Positions 8,871 to 40,393 of a DNA stretch of 64,000 nt are shown in pieces (position 1 is the first letter of the stretch; every line of letters starts with the position of its first letter). Origin of the DNA: Flavobacteriales bacterium (lineage in GTDB: Bacteria; Bacteroidota; Bacteroidia; CAIKAF01); the NCBI GenBank assembly GCA_025451235.1, contig JANWKT010000014.1, forward strand, positions 124,001 to 188,000, written 5' to 3'. The notes beneath the pieces are model-generated. The model saw only the letters and a list, made by a program, of their open reading frames with translations. It made no database searches and was not told the origin of the DNA. A program made the position numbers and the translations under genes.

Positions 8871-9863
8871 TATGTCAAAGATGATGAACTACGTATAAAT
8901 TATGTATAGTTCATTGCATATTCGCTTTCTTCTATTATTTCCAACTGTTTTACCAAATCTTCTATGGTCCATGGATTATCAATTAATCCCGCATGCACTG
9001 CCGGGGCAGTTTTTATGGTAGAGTGGACCCGTATAAAGTTGCAATACGTGAAATGGATTGCGAGAGCATGTACATGATTCTCAAACTTCTTAGAAAATCC
9101 ATTTGTTAACCTGGTAAATCGCCTCATCTGCATGCGCATGGTATAGTTCTGGCGTTCCACTAGTGAGGTGGAACAATGATCCATGGATGGGGTTCCGCTG
9201 ATCACCTTTATATCTATTCCAGTAAGCGGTTTTGGACTGTACCTTCTCTGCTTCATAGGTCTATTTGGATCGTGTTTTTGTACGCCACCGAAAACCTTTA
9301 TGTATCTGGCATAATCAACATTATCCCTAAAAGCAAGTTTAACTGCTTCCGGATATGCCACGTACCCATCAGTAGTGAGCTGTATCCTATTGGATAGTCT
9401 CGATGCCAGATCACACATAAAGTTCTCCGCAGCATTAATGCTACGGTCGCCACATAACCAAGCAACCACCAATTTACTTTCCGGATCCAACGCAACCCAT
9501 GTCCAAACGTCACCAGCTTTATCAGGTAGCTTTTTACAGTGGGCTACGTTCTTGGATTTGCAGTAAATTATGGACCATATCTCGTCGCACTGGATTAGTG
9601 TTGATTTTACATCTCTTACTTTATCGTCATGAATACATAGGCAAAGAGTGCCCATATCAATCAGAAATTTTTTAGCGGTGTTAATAGAACACCCAGTCAT
9701 ACGGGTAACCGATCTTAAGCTGTTACCTTCCACCAATGCTCGAAAAATTTGAACTCTGGTAGCAGAATTTAATTTGTTCATAGTCTAGTGATTGACCACG
9801 TATACGATCAGAAAAATTTCCGATTATTTGGAATTACATAAAAAACGTTATAGTTTTGACATA
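8871..9863. mobile_element. Possible IS1-type element with weak terminal repeats
   Basis: TATGTCAAA (8871-8879) is inverted at 9855-9863 (TTTGACATA), flanking the transposase gene by about 20-75 bases each side, for a total of about 993 bases. The match stops at nine bases and no target-site duplication is visible, so the ends are uncertain and the match may be chance. Confidence 0.3.
8900..9781 (-). CDS. IS1-family-like DDE transposase
   Basis: A 293-residue transposase in one uninterrupted frame, unlike classical IS1, where a frameshift joins InsA and InsB. The N-terminus has a helix-turn-helix (VTRMTGCSINTAKKFLIDMG, 19-38). The catalytic triad is visible as D in IQCDEIWS (about 67), D in LTTDGYVAYPEA (about 138) and E in SLVERQNYTMRMQMRR (about 209), followed by the typical HFTYCNFIRVH block. 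It resembles the longer single-frame IS1 group found across many phyla, often as solitary copies. Nothing is broken in the reading frame. Family assignment is from motif memory. Confidence 0.82.
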   Translation of the reverse strand: MNKLNSATRVQIFRALVEGNSLRSVTRMTGCSINTAKKFLIDMGTLCLCIHDDKVRDVKSTLIQCDEIWSIIYCKSKNVAHCKKLPDKAGDVWTWVALDPESKLVVAWLCGDRSINAAENFMCDLASRLSNRIQLTTDGYVAYPEAVKLAFRDNVDYARYIKVFGGVQKHDPNRPMKQRRYSPKPLTGIDIKVISGTPSMDHCSTSLVERQNYTMRMQMRRFTRLTNGFSKKFENHVHALAIHFTYCNFIRVHSTIKTAPAVHAGLIDNPWTIEDLVKQLEIIEESEYAMNYT

Positions 9864-9975
9864 ACAAAGCCGGTCTGCTTTTTGCAATTAATTGCGTACA
9901 CAGATGCACTTTGTAGTCATCGGAATAAATGGAGGTTGTCACACCCTTTTGCCCATTTACAACGACAAAACATTT

Positions 9976-10000
9976 AGGGGTCCTTTCGGGCCCTTTTTTT
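9976..10000 (+). terminator. Terminator-like hairpin
   Basis: AGGGGTCC pairs with GGGCCCTT (with G-U pairs) around a TTTC loop, followed by a T-run (to 10000). No supported plus-strand gene lies directly upstream, so it may insulate the region from read-through or belong to an unrecognised transcript. Confidence 0.5.
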
Positions 10001-10350
10001 ATGTCCTAATTTTTCTTCACATGATACATGAATTAATAATTAATCAAAACCTCTTCCTACGCTTGCCAATAGAGCCGGAATGAGAGATTGCTTAATTATC
10101 ACGAGAAGCGTTATGAATTCTCCTAATAACTTCGCAGAAAGAACGATCTGCGTTATGATACTTCAAATCTATAGATTTTTTTTAAAAACTTAGGTATGCT
10201 TATGTAGATTTTACTGGATTTTTTTGCACTTTTGATTGAACTGAAAAACTAATACACATAATTATAGAATAGAATATTAATTTAAATATCACAGCGTCAG
10301 CTGATACTTGTAAGGAAAACTGGAAATTTTTTTTGAGACACAAGGGATCA

Positions 10351-10440
10351 GGCTTACGCCCATCGTAAACGTGGGCGGGGGCTTATTCGTGTGTCGGGCA
10401 TTCCAGTGCCTCCTTACCGGATTCGCTTCATGCCCACGTC
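10351..10440. other. Structured GC-rich intergenic element
   Basis: ACGTGGGC (10369-10376) is perfectly inverted at 10432-10439 (GCCCACGT). A local hairpin CGCCCA/TGGGCG sits on the left arm (10357-10377) and a small GGCA/TGCC hairpin lies inside (10397-10410). The GC content is well above the flanks. It could be a REP-like element or an RNA structure in the leader of the lipoprotein gene that starts 49 bases later. Confidence 0.4.
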
Positions 10441-10488
10441 TGTGTTTATAAACTACCATTTAGGGTGTGGATGGGATAAACGCCACTT

Positions 10489-11265
10489 ATGAAACCACTT
10501 AAATTTATCTTTTTTGGCCTGCTATTAATGACATCTTGTGCTCCTGATGTTATTTTAGTTGGCAAAGTAAACATGATCTCCAATCGGAATATAAACCCAG
10601 GAGATGAGAGCTATGTATTTATTTCAGCCTATCAGGGGGCTTCCAAGCAAGACATTAAGAAAACCCGCCACAAGTCTATTGAAGATGCAGTGGATGGAAC
10701 GGTAAGGCAGGTTCCTGGGGGTGAATTCCTAACCAACGTAAAAATCTACTTTGTAAAGGATGAATACTACATGGTAGAGGGGGATGTTTGGGGAAGATCC
10801 AATAATTCAGGAACGGTAACTGAAACTGTCAAAGGGTTTAAATCAGGTGACAGGGTTCAATATCAAAAGAGGATGGGAACAATTATATCTATAGTAGATT
10901 CAAAGGAGTGTTTGGTTCAGTTAGATGGAGATTCGTTTGGGACGAAGATGGAATACGAGAAAATAATTAAGATTGATGTAAACATACAACCCAATGCCAA
11001 CAGTAACAGCAACAATAGTAATTCAGAAAATTCGAATAACCAAAACAATTCGAATAATAACACCCCATCAGTAAATGAAACCCAAAACGGATATAAAGTT
11101 GGTGAAACCGTTAAGTATCTTAGTAAAAGATATGTACCTGCTCAATGGGTAACAGGTGAAATTATCAGCATTACGGCAGATAGATTAAGCGTTGTTATCC
11201 GCTATTACACCAATGGGAAGGAAAAAACTGAAACCGTCAGTTCATATAATCTAAGTAGAATTTAA
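10489..11265 (+). CDS. Lipoprotein with two SH3-like barrels
   Basis: A 258-residue lipoprotein (signal MKPLKFIFFGLLLMTSC, lipid on Cys17). Residues 20-110 form a first region of unknown fold. A segment at about 115-160 (FKSGDRVQYQKRMGTIISIVDSKECLVQLDG) and the C-terminus (YKVGETVKYLSKRYVPAQW, then GEIISITADRLSVVIRYY) look like two related SH3/Tudor-like barrels. A low-complexity Asn/Ser linker of about 40 residues (167-205) joins them. Such domains often bind peptides or small ligands, but none is shown here. It follows the structured element at 10351-10440. Confidence 0.72.
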   Translation: MKPLKFIFFGLLLMTSCAPDVILVGKVNMISNRNINPGDESYVFISAYQGASKQDIKKTRHKSIEDAVDGTVRQVPGGEFLTNVKIYFVKDEYYMVEGDVWGRSNNSGTVTETVKGFKSGDRVQYQKRMGTIISIVDSKECLVQLDGDSFGTKMEYEKIIKIDVNIQPNANSNSNNSNSENSNNQNNSNNNTPSVNETQNGYKVGETVKYLSKRYVPAQWVTGEIISITADRLSVVIRYYTNGKEKTETVSSYNLSRI

Positions 11266-11276
11266 AACCTATTCTC

Positions 11277-11284
11277 TATATTTG
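11277..11284 (+). promoter_or_regulatory. Promoter giving a leaderless start
   Basis: TATATTTG fits the Bacteroidota -7 consensus TAnnTTTG and ends 3 bases before the ATG at 11288, so transcription would start at or just before the start codon. No clear -33 TTG is visible. Confidence 0.5.
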
Positions 11285-11287
11285 CAT

Positions 11288-11455
11288 ATGGCTTTACGTA
11301 AGCGTCCTAAAGATGTAAATCAACTTGCTAAGCTGATAGCAGATATTGCTACTGGTGAGATTGAAGATATTGAGCCTGCAGAAGAAACTGTGATAAAGAA
11401 AAAGAAGGCGCCTTCAAAAAAGAAAAAATCAAAACTTCCTAAGAAGGATAAATAA
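11288..11455 (+). CDS. Small basic protein, KRPxDxNQLAK family
   Basis: A 55-residue protein: MALRKRPKDVNQLAKLIADI, then ATGEIEDIEPAEE and a Lys/Pro-rich basic tail (KKKKAPSKKKKSKLPKKDK). The KRPxDxNQLAKLxxDIATGE head belongs to a widespread small protein family of unknown role; the tail gives it a histone H1-like look, suggesting nucleic-acid binding. It follows the lipoprotein gene by 22 bases but has its own promoter-like element almost touching the ATG. It is too short for usual ORF cut-offs and easily missed. Confidence 0.75.
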   Translation: MALRKRPKDVNQLAKLIADIATGEIEDIEPAEETVIKKKKAPSKKKKSKLPKKDK

Positions 11456-11938
11456 AAATAATGACCAGTTCGTTTTTGGACGTAATTGCCGGGGATTATA
11501 TAGATGTTATAAAACACCGGACAAACTGCAACCAGGTTCTTTAAGTTAAGGTTTAAATACTGTCTCCAGTCAGACCCGACAGAAATGCGGCAATCTGCCC
11601 AATGGTTTCGCCCATGGAGAGATATCTTGCTTTTTTTAAATAAAGTGATATTTAATTGATAACGTACAAGATGAAACTGATACACGACCATAAGATTCGT
11701 ACTTTAAATGATTGTATTCGAATCTAAATGTTTAAATGTCGTTTGAAAATGTTTTAAATATTGATTATTAGTATTTTATGGCTGAGCCAGGTCCCGGTGG
11801 AAGCCACGGCCAAGGGGATCGAGCAAGCAGGGGGGCAGGTAGGTGGAGTAAAGGTCAGGCCGGCAGGGCCCATACTAAGTTTTAAACAGGGAAAAGCCTT
11901 ATTAAATGGGGCTTTAAGAAAAAAATCAACAGAGTATT
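11456..11938. other. Leader region upstream of rpsJ
   Basis: No gene of clear identity. The minus-strand frame 11320-11691 is antisense to the small basic protein and has no support. A GC-rich block (11778-11885) stands out from AT-rich flanks and could encode a 35-residue Gly/Arg-rich peptide or form RNA structure; it is listed separately. Confidence 0.5.
11778..11885 (+). other. GC-rich block with 35-codon ORF
   Basis: An ATG-to-TAA frame of 35 codons encodes MAEPGPGGSHGQGDRASRGA followed by GRWSKGQAGRAHTKF. The block is about 65% GC inside a region near 35%. The GQGDRxxRG stretch is faintly like the tiny ribosomal protein bTHX (GKGDRRTRRG), but the rest does not fit. As RNA it has several G-rich and GGCC-type segments. 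I cannot decide between a diverged small protein, a non-coding RNA and inserted foreign DNA. Confidence 0.3.
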
Positions 11939-11970
11939 TTGGTTATTTGGAAAAAAACTTGCACCTTTGC
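11939..11970 (+). promoter_or_regulatory. rpsJ (S10 operon) promoter
   Basis: TTG (11939-11941), 20 bases, then CACCTTTGC (11962-11970). This is the Bacteroidota -33/-7 arrangement with the first T of the -7 changed to C. The spacer holds a run of A. It is nearly identical to the promoter before rpsQ. The start codon lies 57 bases downstream. Confidence 0.75.
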
Positions 11971-12026
11971 GACCCCGAATTTGGGATAGTTATAAAAGGT
12001 ATATAAACAGTAAGGTTTAGCGTAAA

Positions 12027-12332
12027 ATGAGCCAAAAAATTAGAATAAAACTGAAGTCGTACGATCATAATCTGGTAGACAAGTCTGCTGAAAAGATCGT
12101 AAAGACTGTAAAATCAACGGGTGCAGTGGTGAACGGACCTATTCCTTTGCCTACTCACAAGAGAATTTTTACAGTATTGCGTGCCCCCCACGTGAATAAA
12201 AAAGCCAGGGAGCAGTTTCAGTTAAGTTCATATAAAAGATTGATGGATATCTATTCTTCATCTCCTAAAACCATTGATGCTCTGATGAAATTAGAGCTTC
12301 CTAGCGGAGTTGAAGTAGAGATCAAAGTATAA
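12027..12332 (+). CDS. rpsJ: 30S ribosomal protein S10
   Basis: 101 residues, the usual length. S10 motifs: [20 protein letters not shown] at the N-terminus, [28 protein letters not shown] (37-64), and a C-terminal [11 protein letters not shown]. It binds the 30S head and, in other bacteria, NusB in antitermination. It is the first gene of the cluster behind a strong promoter. The usual upstream partners fusA, rpsG and rpsL are not present here, so the str operon is elsewhere. Confidence 0.98.
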
Positions 12333-12399
12333 GTATTGTATTGTTGAACATGCATGAATAGAGAGATATTCTCTATTCCGCTGCAAAAACAGAATAAAT

Positions 12400-13020
12400 A
12401 TGTCAGGACTAATAGGTAAAAAGATTGGTATGACCAGTATTTACGGTGACAATGGCAAAATGATTGCCTGCACTGTAGTTGAAGCTGGGCCTTGTGTTGT
12501 TACTCAAGTAAAGACCAAAGATGGTAAAGCGGGATATGATGCTATTCAATTAGCATTTGACGACAAGAAAGAAAAGCATACCATTAAATCGGAGAAAGGC
12601 CATTTCGATAAGGCCAAAACAGCTCCCAAAAGAAAACTAGCTGAATTTAAAAACTTTGCCAACGAAAAATCAATCGGTGATGTAATAACTGTGACCGAGT
12701 TTGAAGAAGGTGACTTTATAGATGTGATCGGTACTTCTAAAGGAAAAGGTTTCCAGGGAGTTGTAAAACGTCATGGATTCGCTGGTGTTGGAGGACAAAC
12801 CCACGGTCAGCATAACCGTCAGCGTCACCCGGGTTCATTGGGTGCCTCTTCATGGCCATCACGAGTTATGAAAGGAATGCGCATGGCCGGTAGAATGGGC
12901 GGTGATACGGTAAAAGCAATCAACTTGAAAGTATTAAAAATTGTTCCGGAGCAGAATTTGCTGGTGATCAGCGGAAATATTCCTGGACATAAAGGTTCAT
13001 ATGTTTTAATTGAGAAGTAA
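12400..13020 (+). CDS. rplC: 50S ribosomal protein L3
   Basis: 206 residues. It begins [20 protein letters not shown], the classic L3 start. The loop that reaches towards the peptidyl transferase centre is the [20 protein letters not shown] region (128-147), and the C-terminal barrel ends [12 protein letters not shown] 67-base spacer separates it from rpsJ and contains GAATAGAGAGATATTCTCTATTC, a small hairpin. Early 50S assembly protein. Confidence 0.98.
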
Positions 13021-13021
13021 G

Positions 13022-13654
13022 ATGGAACTGGCAATATATAATATTAGCGGTAAAGAGACCGGGAAAAAAGCAAAGCTGAATGCGGAGATTTTTTCTGTAG
13101 AGCCCAATGATCATGCGATATATTTGGATGTAAAGCAGTTTTTGGCAAACGGAAGACAAGGAACTTCTAAAACGAAGGAAAGAAATGAAGTGCATGGTTC
13201 AACCCGTAAACTTCATAAGCAAAAAGGTACTGGTGGCAGTCGTAAAGGTTCCATCAAAAACCCATTGTATCGTGGAGGAGGCCGTATCTTCGGACCAGAG
13301 CCAAGAGATTATAGCTTTAAATTGAATAAAAAGCTGAAAAGACTTGCTCGTAAATCAGCCTTAACTTATAAAGCACAGGAAGGAAATATTACCATCCTTG
13401 ATCAAATGCAGTTTGAAGCACCAAAAACCAAGGAGTTCTTGAGCTTTTTGAAAAGCTTCGATTCGACGGACAAAAAAATATTATTGGTGATCCCTGATGC
13501 CAATGCCAATGTGTTTTTATCATCAAGGAATCTTGCCAACTCGAATGTAATCATCGCTTCTGAAATAAATACATATGAAGTGCTGGATGCGGAGAAATTA
13601 TTTATTGTAGAAGGATCTTTAGGAACCATTGAAAACATTTTAAGCAACGACTAA
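13022..13654 (+). CDS. rplD: 50S ribosomal protein L4
   Basis: 210 residues from the ATG at 13022, one base after the rplC stop; the upstream in-frame ATG at 13010 would overlap rplC and is unlikely. Family features: the extended loop TRKLHKQKGTGGSRKGSIK (64-82), GGGRIFGPEPRDYSFKLNKK, and the C-terminal Rossmann-like domain. The loop lines the exit tunnel. In E. coli L4 also autoregulates the S10 operon; I see nothing here that tests this. Confidence 0.98.
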   Translation: MELAIYNISGKETGKKAKLNAEIFSVEPNDHAIYLDVKQFLANGRQGTSKTKERNEVHGSTRKLHKQKGTGGSRKGSIKNPLYRGGGRIFGPEPRDYSFKLNKKLKRLARKSALTYKAQEGNITILDQMQFEAPKTKEFLSFLKSFDSTDKKILLVIPDANANVFLSSRNLANSNVIIASEINTYEVLDAEKLFIVEGSLGTIENILSND

Positions 13655-13655
13655 G

Positions 13656-13949
13656 ATGGAAAATATTATTATAAAGCCTTTGATAACCGAGAAAGCCACA
13701 AGAGCCAGCGAAAAATTCCAGCAATTTGGTTTTATCGTTCAGCCAGGAGCAAATAAACTGGAGGTGAAGGCCGCGGTGGAAAAAAGATATGGTGTGAATG
13801 TAACAGGTGTTACCAGTATGAATTATATCGGTAAAAAATCTGTTCGCTATACCAAAAGAGGATTTTCAAAAGGTAAGAAAAATTATTTCAAAAAAGTATT
13901 TGTAACCTTGAAGGAGGGTGAAACAATCGACTTCTTCGCTAATATTTAA
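13656..13949 (+). CDS. rplW: 50S ribosomal protein L23
   Basis: 97 residues. [15 protein letters not shown] (2-16) and [20 protein letters not shown] (33-52) are typical of L23, as is the basic C-terminal loop ([22 protein letters not shown]). It sits at the tunnel exit and docks signal recognition particle and trigger factor. It follows rplD by one base, indicating tight coupling. Confidence 0.98.
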
Positions 13950-33801: not shown

Positions 33802-34266
33802 ATGCCCAGGGCAAAAAGAATACTCAAAACCGGATTGGGGATTTTAATGGCCTTGATCATTTTGCTCGTAGCTTTGTATTTTATATACATCCGATCATTG
33901 TGGGGAGTAGACAGCCGAACGGTGAACTATTATAAGCAATTGAAGGTGGAGATGCGAAATCAGGGCTATCATCCCAATTTCATTATCCTGAGTGGTAAAA
34001 GAGGACGTTGGCATAATAGCCTGTTACAAGGAGCAGCCAAAAACAGTAGACACCTGAAAGGCGAGGCGATAGATATTGTGGTCCTGGACGTAAACGGTGA
34101 CGGTAAAGCCAATGCATTGGATGTTGATATTGTATACAATATCCTGGATCAGGAAATCATTCGTGACCAGGGAGGAATAGGTACCTATAAATCAGAAAGC
34201 GGATTCATCGATCGTCAAATGGTACATTTTGATTGCCGTGGGCATCATGCCCGGTGGAACCGGTAA
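33802..34266 (+). CDS. M15-like peptidase with EF-hand loop, membrane anchored
   Basis: 154 residues. A transmembrane anchor (about 10-30) precedes a periplasmic domain of the M15/DUF882 type (D-Ala-D-Ala carboxypeptidase-like): SRHLKGEAIDI (82-92) supplies His84 and Asp91, and MVHFDCRGHHARW (140-152) the third ligand His142. Between them is a perfect 12-residue EF-hand/dockerin-type loop, DVNGDGKANALD (96-107), which should bind calcium. By family it would trim peptidoglycan peptides. It lies 8 bases after the M16 gene. Confidence 0.75.
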   Translation: MPRAKRILKTGLGILMALIILLVALYFIYIRSLWGVDSRTVNYYKQLKVEMRNQGYHPNFIILSGKRGRWHNSLLQGAAKNSRHLKGEAIDIVVLDVNGDGKANALDVDIVYNILDQEIIRDQGGIGTYKSESGFIDRQMVHFDCRGHHARWNR

Positions 34267-34276
34267 AAAAGTTCAT

Positions 34277-34308
34277 AAAAAAATCCTGGTGATTCACCAG
34301 GATTTTTT
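34277..34308. terminator. Bidirectional terminator
   Basis: AAAATCCTGGTG and CACCAGGATTTT form a perfect stem around ATT, flanked by A on the left and T on the right, between convergent genes ending at 34266 (plus) and 34323 (minus). Confidence 0.88.
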
Positions 34309-34322
34309 GTAAGCCATGAAAT

Positions 34323-35960
34323 TTATGGCATTTTTTCAATCTTTTTCTTGAGCTCTGGTGCACCCTTGTAGGCCGGGTCATATTCCAAGGTCTTATCCAC
34401 ATTTTTCAACGCATCGGCTTTGTTACCTGCCTGAAAAAATATGTAGGCAAGATAATAATGGGCCTCCGCTAAAAATACTTTGTTTTTTGCAGCATCCAAG
34501 GTTCCAAATTCAATCACTTTCTCGTAATGAGGTTTTGCCAATCCTGATTTCGTTAAAGGATCGAGTCCTGCATTTGTTCTTGCCCTGAACACATGAGCCA
34601 CTACGAGGTCAGGTTTTTGAGCAGTTACGATCGCAAAAGTAGAATCTGCTTTTAAAAACGTAAGACTGTCTTTGGTATCCACTGCTTTTACGTAATAAGC
34701 TTGACCTATCTTGAAAATATCATTGATAGCGGGTTCTTTTACCAGGGTAAATTTTTGCAATAAAATATTTACCGCGTCATCATATGATTTCACCTTCAGA
34801 TAGGCGTCGGCCAAAGAACCATATACATCCAGTTTGCTTGAATCCATATCGATGGCCATTTTTAATTCGGGAATGGCCAATGTAGCACCCAGGGAGTCTT
34901 TTTTGGCGCATAATAAAATCTTTCCATAATATCTATGGTCATCTGCAATAATTTTATCACCGGTGGTTTGGGCCTTTCTTAGAAATTTTTCCATATACTG
35001 AAGAGCCTTTGCACAGTCTTTGGTTTCAAAGTATGAATAGGCCAATAACCTGTTCAGAATATTCAATGAGGAATCCACGGTGTTGATATCATCCATCTCA
35101 AAAATAGCAGACTCATATTCTTTTGCAAGGAATAAATATTTGGCATATTTAATTTTAGAGCTTAAACTTTTTGCTAGCTTCACATACTTCAACATATAAT
35201 CCTTGGCATTTTTAAAATCACCGAACTGATAGTACAAGTCACCCAACTTATAATAAGAGGGGGCAAAAGTAGTATCAAGGCTTACAGCTTTGTTATATTC
35301 TACCAAAGCAAGATCGTAGGACCTGGCTCTTTCATACAAGGTACCAATATGGATATAGGGTTTTGGATTTTTAGGATCCATGTCCCTGGCTTTTTCATAA
35401 TTGTTCAAGGCTGTTAAACCATCATTGGTTCCGATCAATGCAGCATCACCCATCAACAAATATATATTCGGATTGTTCCTGTCTGCTTTTTCAGCATTGG
35501 CCAAACATTCCAGTGCATAGGTCATGCTTTTCCATTCGTTTGAAATATAAGCTTCCGCCACAGCTATGTACACTTTTGCATCCTGGCTTAAAGTCAATGC
35601 TTTTTGGAAAAGAGGTTTTGCAGTTGCCTCATCATTTTTGGTCAAAGCTATTTTCCCTTTACCCACATGGTTCAATGCTACATTAGCATCAACGCTGATT
35701 CCTTTTTCATAATAGAAAGCAGCTGAGTCGAACCTTTCGCTTTTATACATGTTTTCACCCATGTAATAGTAATTGGTTGCATCGGTAGGTTTTTCTGCAA
35801 TCAACTTACGAAATACTTTGGATGCTTCTTCGAACTGGTGGTTCTCAGTAAACTTAAGAGCATCTTTTAAATTCTGGGCCGGGGCAGTTTGAACAAGCAT
35901 CAAACCAACTCCAATTAAAAAACCAGCTTTTTTCATCTTTTTCATACTTCTATATATCAT
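34323..35960 (-). CDS. Exported TPR-repeat protein
   Basis: 545 residues. Signal peptide MIYRSMKKMKKAGFLIGVGL, cleaved near TAPAQ. The rest is almost all tetratricopeptide repeats; clear ones read ATNYYYMGENMYKSERFDSAAFYYEKG, PYIHIGTLYERARSYDLALVEYNKA, and SYYKLGDLYYQFGDFKNAKDYMLKY. Its ATG overlaps the stop of the PstS-like gene (ATGA), which supports the first ATG. Periplasmic TPR proteins hold together envelope complexes; its place behind the TonB set suggests a role there. Confidence 0.85.
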   Translation of the reverse strand: MIYRSMKKMKKAGFLIGVGLMLVQTAPAQNLKDALKFTENHQFEEASKVFRKLIAEKPTDATNYYYMGENMYKSERFDSAAFYYEKGISVDANVALNHVGKGKIALTKNDEATAKPLFQKALTLSQDAKVYIAVAEAYISNEWKSMTYALECLANAEKADRNNPNIYLLMGDAALIGTNDGLTALNNYEKARDMDPKNPKPYIHIGTLYERARSYDLALVEYNKAVSLDTTFAPSYYKLGDLYYQFGDFKNAKDYMLKYVKLAKSLSSKIKYAKYLFLAKEYESAIFEMDDINTVDSSLNILNRLLAYSYFETKDCAKALQYMEKFLRKAQTTGDKIIADDHRYYGKILLCAKKDSLGATLAIPELKMAIDMDSSKLDVYGSLADAYLKVKSYDDAVNILLQKFTLVKEPAINDIFKIGQAYYVKAVDTKDSLTFLKADSTFAIVTAQKPDLVVAHVFRARTNAGLDPLTKSGLAKPHYEKVIEFGTLDAAKNKVFLAEAHYYLAYIFFQAGNKADALKNVDKTLEYDPAYKGAPELKKKIEKMP

Positions 35961-36892
35961 TGATTAAATTCTATTATTCGAACCGGGGCGCTTGCAGGAA
36001 CCATTCCTGAACGAAGTACTATCCGCTGCCCTTTATCTCCTGCTATGAAGGAGGCAAAACCTGTGCCAAGTCCTGCACGTGCTTCTCTGCTAATAATAAC
36101 CGCAGTTCTCTTGAAAGGGTACATATCAGCGGCAATGTAGCCCTGATAAGGCCCATAAAATTCGCCGGTAGTATCCGTTACATCCTCCTTACCAATATCC
36201 AGTACTTTAATCTTTTTTAAGAAAGCAATGGCATTGGTATCGGCATCATCACTGATCCAGTTAACGCTGATAATTCCAATGGCATTCTTATGCGTTTCTA
36301 TATAATTGATCACTTCCGGATTTGAGTTCACCGCGAAGCAATTGGAAGGAAGTTTGTTTTGAAGTTTAAATCTTTCGTTCACCATCCTTACATTTCCTGA
36401 TCTAGGACTGTCGAAAATAATTTTAATGCTGTCTTTTGTGAAAGAAGAGTTAATTTGATTCCAGGTAGAAATCTTTCCGGAAAAAAGATCTCCCACCTGG
36501 CTATACAAAAGTTTGTTGAGCTTGTTTTCGTTGTTTACAATAAAGGCCAACCCATCAAAGGCTATTTTAACCACCTTAGGAGTGATCTTTTCCTGAACAA
36601 AATAACTTTGTTCGCTGGCGTTCAATTCCCGGTTAACAACTATAAACCTGGATGAATCTGCCAGAAGATCTTCGAATGCTTTTGCCTCATCGGCATAGGT
36701 GATCACAATATCTGCACGAGGATATAAACTTTCAAATACCTCTACTTCTGCCTCCATCATAGGCATATAGGATTCATCCACCGTAATATGGATCTTTCCT
36801 GAAGTGGGATCATCTGTTGGGCTGCTGCCTTTTTTTCCGCAGCTTGTGAGGATGGCAGCAATAAGGATCAGTATAAGGGGATATTTTTTCAT
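35957..36892 (-). CDS. PstS-like phosphate-binding lipoprotein
   Basis: 311 residues. Lipoprotein signal MKKYPLILILIAAILTSC (lipid on Cys18). Motifs of the PBP-like/PstS family: GKIHITVDESYMPMMEAEVEVFE (about 32-54), IVNRELNASEQSYF, VVKIAFDGLAFIVNNENKLNKL and SRSGNVRMVNERF-like DSPRSGNVR. No pstC, pstA or pstB is near, so it probably serves the ExbBD-TonB system or senses a ligand and does not feed an ABC transporter. It overlaps both neighbours by ATGA. Confidence 0.82.
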   Translation of the reverse strand: MKKYPLILILIAAILTSCGKKGSSPTDDPTSGKIHITVDESYMPMMEAEVEVFESLYPRADIVITYADEAKAFEDLLADSSRFIVVNRELNASEQSYFVQEKITPKVVKIAFDGLAFIVNNENKLNKLLYSQVGDLFSGKISTWNQINSSFTKDSIKIIFDSPRSGNVRMVNERFKLQNKLPSNCFAVNSNPEVINYIETHKNAIGIISVNWISDDADTNAIAFLKKIKVLDIGKEDVTDTTGEFYGPYQGYIAADMYPFKRTAVIISREARAGLGTGFASFIAGDKGQRIVLRSGMVPASAPVRIIEFNQ

Positions 36893-37101
36893 TCGTCTGA
36901 TTGGTTTTTCTTTTGTTGGAGATGCTGATATAGCCTGAAGCCGGCATACAAGGCAAAGAGCAGGCCCATGGCTATCCTGAATACGATGTTGGTATTTTGA
37001 AAGAGGGGTATGGGTAAAAAAATGATTGCCATCCCTACCAGAAAATACATAGCAACACGCAGGATTTTTATGATTGAGTTTATTTTTGACACTCCTTCCA
37101 T
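36889..37101 (-). CDS. Small two-helix membrane protein
   Basis: 70 residues with two transmembrane helices (about 12-32 and 39-57) and a basic-polar C-terminus (QHLQQKKNQSDE). Its stop overlaps the ATG of the PstS-like gene (ATGA), so it opens a three-gene coupled unit. A minus-strand TATTTTTG element (37167-37160) lies about 60 bases upstream. Function unknown; association with the TonB set is by context only. Confidence 0.7.
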   Translation of the reverse strand: MEGVSKINSIIKILRVAMYFLVGMAIIFLPIPLFQNTNIVFRIAMGLLFALYAGFRLYQHLQQKKNQSDE

Positions 37102-37413
37102 TTAGCCTTACTTTAATTCAAACAGGTTAACAATATTGACTTTCCTGTGAATTCAAGCCCAAAAATATAATAATCATTTTATAGACTGATAGGTTTATTC
37201 ACAAAATATCAATTTTAACTGCGTTCGTGAACTGACCGTCTCGGCTAAGCACGAGGCGGTTCGATTCACCAATAATTAAAGCTCTATTACTTTTTTTAAG
37301 AAAGGTGTGTTGGGGGATATTGGTTTTAGCCAGGGTTTAAGGCCCTTTTTAGGCTTATAGGGATAAAAAAACAGGATGCGATGGTTCACATCCTGTTCAG
37401 GTATTAAATAATC
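37102..37413. other. Intergenic gap between the TonB set and the coupled trio
   Basis: Holds a promoter-like TATTTTTG (37160-37167, minus), a hairpin-forming stretch with ACCGTCTCG / CGAGGCGGT (about 37236-37261) and the tonB terminator (37363-37397). No gene. Confidence 0.6.
37363..37397 (-). terminator. Terminator after tonB
   Basis: On the minus strand AACAGGATG (37397-37389) pairs with CATCCTGTT (37378-37370) and runs into a T-tract; it starts 16 bases after the tonB stop, so the Exb/TonB operon and the downstream trio are largely separate. Confidence 0.8.
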
Positions 37414-38199
37414 TTAATGTAATGTAAAGTTAATAGGGAAACGGAATTTTACCACTACCGGGCGACCGCTTTGTTTACCAGGGGTCCATCTAGGCATCAT
37501 GGATACCACACGAACTGCCTCCTCATCACATCCACCGCCAATACCACGGAGAACTTCCACATTGCTTACGTTTCCAAATTTATCAACGATAAAACTGAGC
37601 CATACTTTTCCCTGGATCCCTTGTTCTTTGGCCATGGTAGGATATTGCATGTTTTTATCTAAGAATTCATTTCTTGCTGCCTCACCACCTGGGAATTCAG
37701 GCATCTGCTCTACCACAGTAAATACTTCATCTGTTCCGGTACCACCGATCATTTCCTCAGTCCCAGTTCCTTCGAAACCCGGAATACCTTCAATACCCTG
37801 GTTGGTAACCGTACCAGGATTGGATTCCTGCACATCTTCTATGGTGGTGATCTCCACTACCTCATCAGTAGTAACAATCGGAACCGTAAACTGAATACTT
37901 TCAATTTGTGGAGTTTCGGGTTTAAATTCAGGTTTCTCTTCCTCTTCTGGAGCAAGCTCCTGAAGGCTCAGATCCACTTCCTTGGTCACAAATACATCTT
38001 GTTTACCTCTTAAGCCATTAATAAACATAGAAATATAAGGAATTGCCAATACCGATCCGATGATAAAAAGACCTACGAATAATCCCATTAAAATATGGAA
38101 TACATAAGAGGAACGAATCACGTATGCTCCGTACGCCTTGTTCCGTTTTTCGAAAACAAGATCGTCGAATTGTTCGATGTTAGAAATTGCCTGACTCAT
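37414..38199 (-). CDS. tonB: Energy transducer TonB
   Basis: 261 residues. A cytoplasmic head with FEKRNKAYGAYVIRSSY (16-32, the Bacteroidota TonB opening) is followed by one transmembrane helix (about 36-58). The periplasmic linker is rich in Pro and Glu (ELAPEEEEKPEFKPETP). The TonB C-terminal domain is at about 170-261: YPTMAKEQGIQGKVWLSFIVDKFGNVSNVEVLRG and a last strand VVKFRFPINFTLH. It transmits proton-motive energy to outer-membrane receptors. It lies directly behind the two exbD genes. Confidence 0.95.
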   Translation of the reverse strand: MSQAISNIEQFDDLVFEKRNKAYGAYVIRSSYVFHILMGLFVGLFIIGSVLAIPYISMFINGLRGKQDVFVTKEVDLSLQELAPEEEEKPEFKPETPQIESIQFTVPIVTTDEVVEITTIEDVQESNPGTVTNQGIEGIPGFEGTGTEEMIGGTGTDEVFTVVEQMPEFPGGEAARNEFLDKNMQYPTMAKEQGIQGKVWLSFIVDKFGNVSNVEVLRGIGGGCDEEAVRVVSMMPRWTPGKQSGRPVVVKFRFPINFTLH

Positions 38200-38235: not shown

Positions 38236-38865
38236 TTACAGTGTTTCAATTGCTTTCTTTTCATCTTCACTAATATCTACGATTGCAAAGTTTACAACGC
38301 TGCAAATCGACATTTCGTCTAATATGTTCACTATGTTTTCATATTTGGCCTCTTCCAAAGCTTTTATGATCACAAATATTCCATCGTTCTTTTTATCCTT
38401 CTTCGCCCATCTAACCGTATCCTTGAACTGCTCTTCAGTAAGTTTATCCTCTTTGCGCATTTGCTCAAATTTACTCACCAGGTCATATACTTTCTGGTTC
38501 TTGTTAATGAGGGTCTTCCTGATACCGTCCTTGGAATAATTCGACTTCTGGATCAAATCCGGTTTTGCCATATCGAATATACCTTCGTAATAAAAGAGCT
38601 TATTATTTTTACCAATCAAGATAGTGATGGTTAAATCATCCTTTACCTTGGTTTGTGTTTTGATGTCCTTGTTAGGCACCGGCATATTTACTTCCATCGC
38701 CTTCGGTTTGTTGAAGGTGGTGGTCAACATAAAAAATGTGAGCAGCAGGAACGCCAAATCCACCATTGGTGTCATATCAATTCTTGTTGACTGCTTCTTC
38801 GCGTGGGGCTTCTTATCACCTTTCTTGTGACTGCCCCCGCTACTCCCTGTGTCTAGTTCTGCCAT
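38236..38865 (-). CDS. ExbD/TolR biopolymer transport protein, second copy
   Basis: 209 residues. The ExbD core is IDMTPMVDLAFLLLTFFMLTTTF (about 29-51), with the proton-carrying Asp in MVDLAF. The N-terminus is an unusual Gly/Ser/Lys-rich stretch (SSGGSHKKGDKKPHAKKQ). The periplasmic part is long (about 150 residues) with two inserted helices. Bacteroidota often pair two different ExbD proteins with one ExbB, as here. Confidence 0.93.
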   Translation of the reverse strand: MAELDTGSSGGSHKKGDKKPHAKKQSTRIDMTPMVDLAFLLLTFFMLTTTFNKPKAMEVNMPVPNKDIKTQTKVKDDLTITILIGKNNKLFYYEGIFDMAKPDLIQKSNYSKDGIRKTLINKNQKVYDLVSKFEQMRKEDKLTEEQFKDTVRWAKKDKKNDGIFVIIKALEEAKYENIVNILDEMSICSVVNFAIVDISEDEKKAIETL

Positions 38866-38957: not shown

Positions 38958-39557
38958 TTACTCTACTTTCATATTAGTTATTAACTTGAATTTGAATACT
39001 TTAACTTCTTCAAGTATCTTGATCACCTGTTTTACTTTTTTATAGCTGGCATCCCTGTCGCCTTTGATCGCAACCATGGCTTGGGGGTTTTCCATCCTGG
39101 CTTCATAGAGCCAATCGTATAACTGGTTGTTCAGGGAATCGCAAGGGACCCCGTTAGTAGGATAATCATTCCTTCCATCACTGGATAAGTGGAGCCATTC
39201 TTTCAATTCTCCCATGGGTATCCCTACCGATGTTAGATTTGAAAAAGTATGGCTTTCCTCGGTAGTGAATGCAACTTTATACTTATCCTTCTCACCCATT
39301 TTTTTCAGTACATTTTTTCGGTGTTCCTGCCCGTCAAAAGCCATGAAAACCCTGTCTTTATTATCAATGGTGAGCAATATCACGTCCTTTTCAGGCAATA
39401 TCAACTCCGAAATGGAGGAAGGTACCTGGGCCTCTGCAGGCTCATCCGGACGAAATTGTGTGGTAAGCATGAAGAAGGTCACCAATAGAAAGCCCAAGTC
39501 CACCATTGGCGTCATGTCAATGGAGGGAGTGCTCCTCGGCATTTTAATTTTTGGCAT
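38958..39557 (-). CDS. ExbD/TolR biopolymer transport protein, first copy
   Basis: 199 residues. The same core as the next gene, IDMTPMVDLGFLLVTFFMLTTQF (13-35), with the conserved membrane Asp. The periplasmic domain ends IKILEEVKVFKFKLITNMKVE. It starts 14 bases after exbB. The two copies differ clearly outside the membrane helix, so they are not recent duplicates and probably form mixed dimers in the ExbB ring. Confidence 0.93.
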   Translation of the reverse strand: MPKIKMPRSTPSIDMTPMVDLGFLLVTFFMLTTQFRPDEPAEAQVPSSISELILPEKDVILLTIDNKDRVFMAFDGQEHRKNVLKKMGEKDKYKVAFTTEESHTFSNLTSVGIPMGELKEWLHLSSDGRNDYPTNGVPCDSLNNQLYDWLYEARMENPQAMVAIKGDRDASYKKVKQVIKILEEVKVFKFKLITNMKVE

Positions 39558-39571
39558 CTTTCTTCTAGAGA

Positions 39572-40393
39572 TTATTTGGTTTTAGCAGCAAAAGTCTGAA
39601 TAAGACTAAATCCTGCTTCATCAATTTTATAGGTCAATGAATCAATCAACGAGCTAAACAAGTTGTACATGATAATAGCCACAACTGATCCACCGATTCC
39701 AAGGAATGTATTGATCAAGGCCTCAGAGATACCATTTGCCAAGGCAACTGCATCAGGCGCACCTGCTTGTGCAAGAGCCGAGAAGGCCACGATCATACCC
39801 CTTACCGTTCCGATCAAACCAACCAGAGTTGCTACGGATGCCAAGGTGGAAATGATCACCATATTTTTTGATAGCATCGGGAGTTCAAGGGCGGTTGCCT
39901 CTTCAAATTCACGTTGGATCACCAATACCTTCTGGTCTTTTTCCATTTTATCATCTTTCATTAGCTCATCGAACTTACTCAAGCCAGCTCTCATTACATT
40001 CGCCAATGAACCTTTTTGTCTGTTACAAGCAGCGATAGCTTCATTGATTTGATCATTCTTGATCATATATTGTAACCTTGAAACGAAGCCGGTTAAGCTT
40101 CCATTACCTCTTGCTCTGATGATGGTAATAGCACGTTCTATGGTAAAAGTAATGATGATCAGTACGATGGCAATAAGCAAGGCCACAATCGGACCTCCTT
40201 TATACATCACACCTAAAAAATCACCTTTAACGGGGTGATTGGCCCTGTCATTACCTTCAAAGTGCATTGGAGCACCTAATATTTTATCAAAAATAAACCA
40301 TCCGAATACGCAGCATAAAATGATCACGATTGGATTAAACAGGGCTTTTAAAATTCCGCCTCCTGAGTTCTTTGGTGCTTGATATTTTTCCAT
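39572..40393 (-). CDS. exbB: MotA/TolQ/ExbB proton channel protein
   Basis: 273 residues. Transmembrane helices at about 15-35, 66-88, 180-205 and 222-245. The MotA_ExbB domain contains ELPMLSKNMVIISTLASVATLVGLIGTVRGMIVAFSALAQ (about 171-210), where GLIGTVRGM is the family signature. It forms the pentameric stator around ExbD. It is the first gene of the operon; a TACTTTTG element lies about 55 bases upstream. Confidence 0.95.
   Translation of the reverse strand: MEKYQAPKNSGGGILKALFNPIVIILCCVFGWFIFDKILGAPMHFEGNDRANHPVKGDFLGVMYKGGPIVALLIAIVLIIITFTIERAITIIRARGNGSLTGFVSRLQYMIKNDQINEAIAACNRQKGSLANVMRAGLSKFDELMKDDKMEKDQKVLVIQREFEEATALELPMLSKNMVIISTLASVATLVGLIGTVRGMIVAFSALAQAGAPDAVALANGISEALINTFLGIGGSVVAIIMYNLFSSLIDSLTYKIDEAGFSLIQTFAAKTK

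Follow-up and report, generated by a model that had tools for sequence, protein, structure and literature searches.

In Bacteroidota, large nutrients are to a great extent taken up by TonB-dependent transport, whose motor is generally depicted with ExbB, ExbD and TonB as its sole components. Extra subunits (TtpC2, TtpB2 and TtpD2) are described for the TonB2 motor of Vibrio, one of them the co-encoded TPR protein TtpD2 of 425 aa (amino acids), which is essential for TonB2-dependent iron (siderophore) transport in V. vulnificus (PMC6957404, available part of the text). In Riemerella anatipestifer, a 2015 study reported that disruption of tonB2 strongly reduced hemin uptake and also growth on iron-depleted medium (PMC4446302, available part of the text). 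In the same report, exbB1-exbD1-tonB1 was functional in E. coli with a native receptor; exbB2-exbD-exbD-tonB2 without the next gene was not functional there ('data not shown'), and the gene behind tonB2 was annotated as a phosphate ABC substrate-binding protein. The present analysis concerns a stretch of 64,000 nucleotides from a Flavobacteriales bacterium (GenBank assembly GCA_025451235.1, contig JANWKT010000014.1, positions 124,001 to 188,000 of the forward strand), here called the window. In the window, exbB-exbD-exbD-tonB lie upstream of a trio of genes on the same strand, encoding a microprotein, a PstS-fold lipoprotein and a TPR protein. The trio is a conserved module that is co-inherited with the motor, and the phosphate site of its lipoprotein has been lost. 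Judged from gene order and co-inheritance, the trio rather likely forms an accessory arm of the Bacteroidota Ton motor ExbB-ExbD-ExbD-TonB, comparable to TtpD2 of the Vibrio TonB2 system, and the three proteins are probably working parts of that motor.

A preliminary description of the window had proposed these three genes, and all of them were found at their places on the minus strand. The features of the locus, in window coordinates, are as follows.

39572..40393, minus strand: exbB, MotA/TolQ/ExbB proton channel (PF01618, 98.1 bits)
38958..39557, minus strand: exbD, first copy (PF02472, 78.5 bits)
38236..38865, minus strand: exbD, second copy (PF02472, 75.1 bits)
37414..38199, minus strand: tonB, energy transducer with a TonB C-terminal domain (PF03544, 71.2 bits, residues 183-260)
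37369..37398, minus strand: terminator-like hairpin in the gap between tonB and the trio (13 pairs and a T run; -18.5 kcal/mol, z -6.4)
36889..37101, minus strand: microprotein, 70 aa (alignment of 115 sequences; conserved Y-G-x-x-R)
35957..36892, minus strand: PstS-fold lipoprotein, 311 aa, lipobox Cys18 (PF12849, 116.6 bits)
34323..35960, minus strand: TPR protein, 545 aa (several Pfam TPR models)
34265..34322, minus strand: stretch with a terminator-like hairpin 3' of the TPR gene (-20.0 kcal/mol, z -5.35; by folding energy only, the pattern scan having given no entry on this strand)

Relatives of the trio were collected by searching a genome collection with a lipoprotein profile, and the best 80 of at least 585 confirmed relatives, a choice that favours close ones, were taken as database loci. 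Nearly all were labelled Bacteroidota or its orders (Rufibacter, Pontibacter, Adhaeribacter, Solitalea and many uncultured organisms); the remaining labels were a few 'uncultured bacterium' and two Ignavibacteria or Ignavibacteriaceae. The TPR gene directly followed the lipoprotein gene in 80/80 loci, which is far above chance, and the microprotein gene preceded the lipoprotein gene in 75. A complete exbB-exbD-exbD-tonB set was adjacent on the same strand within the fetched flanks of 67/80 loci. It was located upstream in 46 of these, in the order of the window, and downstream in 21 (microprotein-lipoprotein-TPR-exbB-exbD-exbD-tonB). That the blocks stay adjacent in either order would be difficult to account for if they had no functional link. 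Among the other 13 loci, six had partial sets on short contigs and seven had no motor genes; five of the seven were short contigs and two (L073 and L086) had full flanks.

From a sample of 198 genomes of the phylum, the analysis covered 80 contexts of the lipoprotein and 48 genomes lacking its family, beside the window's own genome; 69 other genomes were left out, save G021, G025 and G080, for which short loci only were used. The lipoprotein-TPR pair was found at 51 of the 80 sample loci and at one second locus (L210), corresponding to 52 genomes beside the window's own, and a complete adjacent motor set was present in 39 of the 52. In these loci and genomes the trio is therefore not mostly located away from the exb/tonB genes, and the proposal of the preliminary description, an accessory arm of the TonB machine, appears supported by synteny together with co-inheritance. 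A trio universal in the phylum was ruled out by the 46 of 198 genomes in which single-protein and profile searches gave no match to the lipoprotein family.

Co-inheritance was followed by means of the ExbB type encoded in the window. This ExbB was present in 52/52 pair-bearing genomes (E <= 2e-53), whether linked to the pair or not, and so in 13/13 of those without a complete adjacent motor set. An exbB-exbD-exbD cassette was located elsewhere in 12 of these 13 genomes, in 11 of them with tonB, and the TPR profile gave more than 500 bits in 4/4 tested genomes with an unlinked trio. Window-type ExbB was found in 0/48 genomes with no (46) or fragmentary (2) matches to the lipoprotein family, three of which had an ExbB match at E <= 1e-20 (best 1.5e-24). 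It was also absent in 16 genomes whose best family member was PstS-like and had no TPR neighbour (best 1.6e-24). The TPR profile, searched in 12 genomes without the trio, gave one partial match of 90 bits. In total, 64 of the 74 tested genomes without the lipoprotein-TPR pair were also without window-type ExbB, in a two-by-two count from which two contig-limited genomes were left out (G039, with the lipoprotein at a contig end and ExbB present; G096, with a small contig, no TPR call and no ExbB found). Both states were present in families f5, f16 and f34, and in those of their genomes that were tested the motor and trio blocks were either both present or both absent. On an rpoB tree of 62 hand-chosen genomes (31 with the trio and 31 without), which left out exceptions from families f15, f17 and f28 that would have added discordant pairs, the trio and ExbB traits agreed in 62/62. 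The trait changed 12 times on this tree, and 10/10 independent pairs on supported branches agreed (sign test, p 0.002), with the ExbB trait set equal to the trio trait in the pair analysis, given the complete agreement.

It could be argued that the genes share nothing but expression, the trio serving another envelope task and staying near exb-tonB for regulation. In favour of this, no complete exb set is adjacent in 13 of the 52 genomes with the pair, but co-inheritance with ExbB holds even where the genes are unlinked, which regulation through neighbourhood does not require. This explanation is considered very unlikely.

The lipoprotein lies within the Pfam family PBP_like_2, its score against PF12849 exceeding the cut-off of 27 bits, and is the sole match to that family in its genome (4.28 Mb, 98% complete). 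The AlphaFold model of the lipoprotein (pLDDT 91.9, pTM 0.85) was compared by Foldseek with the phosphate-binding protein 4gd5_A, giving a TM of 0.90 by target length and 0.71 by query length. The likeness to PstS thus comprises the fold and a distant sequence relationship. The lipoprotein differs from PstS in lacking the phosphate loops and the Arg, in lacking a permease in the genome, in scoring below the cut-off of the NCBIfam PstS model TIGR02136 and in belonging to a separate clade. On TIGR02136 it reached 100.4 bits (cut-off 206.6), and four other trio lipoproteins reached 56-99 bits, compared to 229-271 bits for four PstS-side controls. The PstS controls were 12 proteins picked for their position beside pstC matches in pair-bearing genomes. 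Positions of the phosphate site were assigned by alignment with 4gd5 and from general PstS chemistry, the phosphate-binding loops of PstS being presumably GS-D/T-T, GGGSG and SRE..SGT, plus an Arg. The equivalents of Ser39, Arg161 and Thr167 were kept in 12/12 controls. In 38 trio lipoproteins (that of the window and 37 from the sample), Asp39 was found in 33, Glu69 in 27, Asp161 in 25 and Arg161 in 0; in the 80 database loci the counts were 79 for Asp39, 80 for Glu69 and 80 for Asp161. A quick tree split 28 PstS-like proteins (the 12 controls and 16 others) from 66 proteins of the trio clade with a support of 100, and the relocated lipoproteins fell on the trio side, where many branches were weak. 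By these sequence criteria, the lipoprotein is not a PstS.

A divergent PstS that still binds phosphate, for uptake or sensing, is regarded as extremely improbable. It would agree with the fold and the Pfam family, and with the finding of pstC above cut-off in 33/54 sampled genomes, where a partner thus exists and pst and trio can coexist. However, the window's own genome gave 0 matches to TIGR02138 and TIGR00974 (pstC and pstA), both of which were detected in 14/14 control genomes, and it has a Pit-type transporter. The lipoprotein-TPR pair occurs without pstC above cut-off in 19/54 sampled genomes, and in 12 genomes with the pair, selected for this feature, a separate PstS was located beside permeases. 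The preliminary description had noted that no ABC transporter genes were present, which was found to hold for the whole genome as regards pstC and pstA. The work with a distant pstCAB that it had named as an alternative is contradicted by the missing permease genes, the lost site residues and the low TIGR02136 score, and a phosphate transport role was rejected on these grounds.

Of the 11 clade members found to lack the TPR gene as a neighbour, seven had, directly downstream on the same strand, a gene related to membrane diguanylate cyclases (L165, positions 8977-13693, as well as L163, L166, L167, L170, L154 and L070). GGDEF was found by Pfam in both cyclase-type genes scanned (L165 and L070), and HAMP in one. 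FtsX/MacB-type permease genes were found further on in these loci, which possibly encode a sensor pair of binding protein and cyclase. Such an arrangement suggests that, within this clade, proteins of the fold can signal to a partner in the membrane. For the trio itself, it is unlikely that the lipoprotein acts mainly as a periplasmic sensor, reporting its ligand state to a membrane partner and, in the Ton locus, tuning the motor. These cyclase genes and the retained two-lobed binding-protein fold would be in line with such a role. The cyclase-type loci are, however, without the TPR gene, a search of trio loci detected no cyclase gene of this type, and no ligand is known for the lipoprotein. 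Tandem lipoproteins of the PstS fold were observed in L070, L071, L154 and L157, with a longer upstream copy of about 365-440 aa.

The microprotein alignment of 115 sequences showed R56 in 114, G23 in 111, Y52 in 107 and G46 in 94; as similarity was the criterion for gathering the sequences, this conservation is somewhat enriched by selection. Two membrane helices and a basic C-terminal tail were recognized by eye, and by the positive-inside rule the basic tail suggests that both ends of the microprotein are cytoplasmic. No Pfam match was obtained for the window microprotein at E <= 0.01, its one NCBIfam match scored 17.7 bits against a cut-off of 42, and a scan of the PDB gave no solved relative (best E 0.35). 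Assignment to a known family was also attempted with 29 members, which gave only scattered matches to assorted membrane families; DUF308 was the most frequent of these (5/29 microproteins, best E 2.6e-5, without cut-off information). By alignment, the microprotein is a true family, nameless in the Pfam, NCBIfam and PDB searches performed.

An apparent signal peptide, ending in APAQ, was recognized by eye in the TPR protein. The model of this protein (pLDDT 92.9) contains 29 helices forming a helical solenoid from residue 27, residues 1-27 being not confident. Residues 270-542 aligned in one stretch with 3u4t (E 5.6e-28) at 30% identity, with a TM of 0.84-0.85 by target length. 3u4t is the solved C-terminal part of the TPR protein Q11TI6 of Cytophaga hutchinsonii and matches the C-terminal half of the present protein; Q11TI6 is perhaps an orthologue. 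We know of no function for the 3u4t protein.

In the proposed mechanism, the microprotein would be a two-helix small subunit in the inner membrane beside ExbB and ExbD. The TPR solenoid may act as a periplasmic scaffold by which TonB or its receptors are held or guided, by analogy with TtpD2, and the membrane-tethered PstS-fold lipoprotein would dock on this scaffold as a binding or gating module. As the cleft of the lipoprotein is often lined by acids, it would be suited to a cation, or to a side chain or peptide that is basic, and not to phosphate. The TonB2 system of Vibrio resembles the present locus as a Ton motor with extra subunits including a TPR protein, and is likened here by description; in the available part of its report no PstS-fold lipoprotein or two-helix microprotein is mentioned, and TtpD2 is shorter than the 545 aa TPR protein (PMC6957404). 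The Riemerella cluster exbB2-exbD21-exbD22-tonB2 differs in that the substrate-binding gene appears merely as a neighbour, the microprotein and the TPR protein not being mentioned in the available part of the text (PMC4446302). Missing trio partners could explain the failure of the four Riemerella genes in E. coli, for which a trio module would offer a reason. A stronger version of the accessory arm is a seven-component Ton machine, which is possible but doubtful. In such a machine the former phosphate binder with its acidified site would be a subunit or gate of the proton-driven outer-membrane energiser, held by the TPR protein, the Y-G-x-x-R microprotein would be a missing inner-membrane subunit of ExbB-ExbD, and the four classical genes alone would be insufficient.

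The cluster was also compared with the Tol-Pal system, whose gene order is tolQRA-tolB-pal-cpoB. Both clusters combine a proton motor and a transducer with a lipoprotein and a TPR protein, and the order motor-transducer-lipoprotein-TPR resembles the Tol-Pal order. In a Tol-Pal-like envelope tether, ExbB/ExbD would correspond to TolQ/TolR, TonB to TolA and the TPR protein to CpoB, the lipoprotein would be pulled, and the main job would be outer-membrane integrity and not nutrient uptake. With the NCBIfam models, ExbB scored best on tolQ (78.8 bits, cut-off 221), ahead of exbB (58.7 bits, cut-off 206.2), and both ExbDs scored better on tolR (34.3 and 42.4 bits, cut-off 127.3) than on the ExbD models, but all these scores are far below the cut-offs. 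Unlike in Tol-Pal, the transducer carries a TonB C-terminal domain, and no Pal/OmpA or TolB Pfam match was found among the nine proteins scanned. The lowered hemin uptake and iron-depleted growth after loss of tonB2 in R. anatipestifer also oppose such a tether, as far as the available text of that study goes (PMC4446302). An envelope tether of this type is therefore thought improbable.

Several findings weigh against an accessory arm of the motor. Ten genomes of families f15, f17 and f28 have a window-type ExbB (E 1e-56 to 1e-61) and no TPR orthologue, the TPR profile giving 0/10 at E <= 1e-25; a full exbB-exbD-exbD-tonB cassette was present in 7/7 of those inspected, and their lipoproteins are located elsewhere than the motor set. 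A motor of this kind therefore does not strictly depend on the lipoprotein and the TPR protein. In the window, the proposed position behind exbB-exbD-exbD-tonB was confirmed, although 312 nucleotides with the 13-bp terminator-like hairpin and its U run intervene between tonB and the trio, so that the trio may form its own transcription unit there; terminator-like sites as a class were not enriched in the region (6 compared to 5.9 in shuffles). The tight binding of the genes by ATGA overlaps, claimed in the preliminary description, stands for the window, where both overlaps of four bases are present (36889-36892 between microprotein and lipoprotein genes, 35957-35960 between lipoprotein and TPR genes), but not for its relatives. 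An exact spacing of -4 was found at 9/116 microprotein-lipoprotein and 4/131 lipoprotein-TPR junctions, rough figures as the first ATG, GTG or TTG was taken as start, and these counts rule out ATGA coupling as a conserved feature. The acids of the cleft are not universal either, since 17 more distant lipoproteins had Asp39 in 14, Glu69 in 2 and Asp161 in 2; loss of the phosphate site is thus general, with full acidic replacement typical of the nearer groups. The failure of Riemerella TonB2 in E. coli could also stem from, for example, a wrong receptor or poor assembly. In the literature, no interaction, localisation, ligand or mutant results were found for the trio.

A microprotein-like open reading frame (ORF) was found behind tonB in two of the seven inspected TPR-less genomes (L194, 6706-7101; L195, 12365-12760), each 131 aa long and extended at the N-terminus. 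In view of these ORFs, the link to the motor may be closer for the microprotein than for the lipoprotein and the TPR protein. The TPR start within the ATGA may be wrong, as relatives often align to Met6. A second, weaker hairpin was observed at 37200-37290 in the gap between tonB and the microprotein gene (-23.2 kcal/mol, z -2.05).

The literature search, by title and start of abstract, gave no paper on the trio, which is weak evidence as subscription papers were mostly outside the search. The only mention met was that of the gene next to tonB2 in Riemerella (PMC4446302, available part). A hemolysis screen in Riemerella had found both an exbD gene and a TPR gene (PMC7881567, available part), but the latter is probably not that of the trio, because the locus tags Riean_0932 and Riean_0317 are far apart.

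An accessory arm of three further co-inherited proteins would change the picture of a motor made of ExbB, ExbD and TonB only. New here are a microprotein family without a name in the libraries searched and a repurposed PstS fold in a putative Ton accessory module. Annotations of the lipoprotein as part of a phosphate transporter would be corrected, in genomes without such a transporter, and the vague question of whether Bacteroidota Ton systems need other proteins becomes one that can be addressed by experiment.

Two tandem tonB genes were observed in the cluster of several relatives, mostly Pontibacter (L093, L095, L098, L103, L104, L105, L108, L110, L112, L114, L117, L128, L130, L133, L134 and L135, and also L032 and L158), and L158 contained five tonB-like ORFs. 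In the window, a small M15-type peptidase-like protein is encoded on the plus strand at 33802-34266, convergent with the TPR gene, and contains a dockerin-like stretch of 22.7 bits, just under the Pfam cut-off of 22.9.

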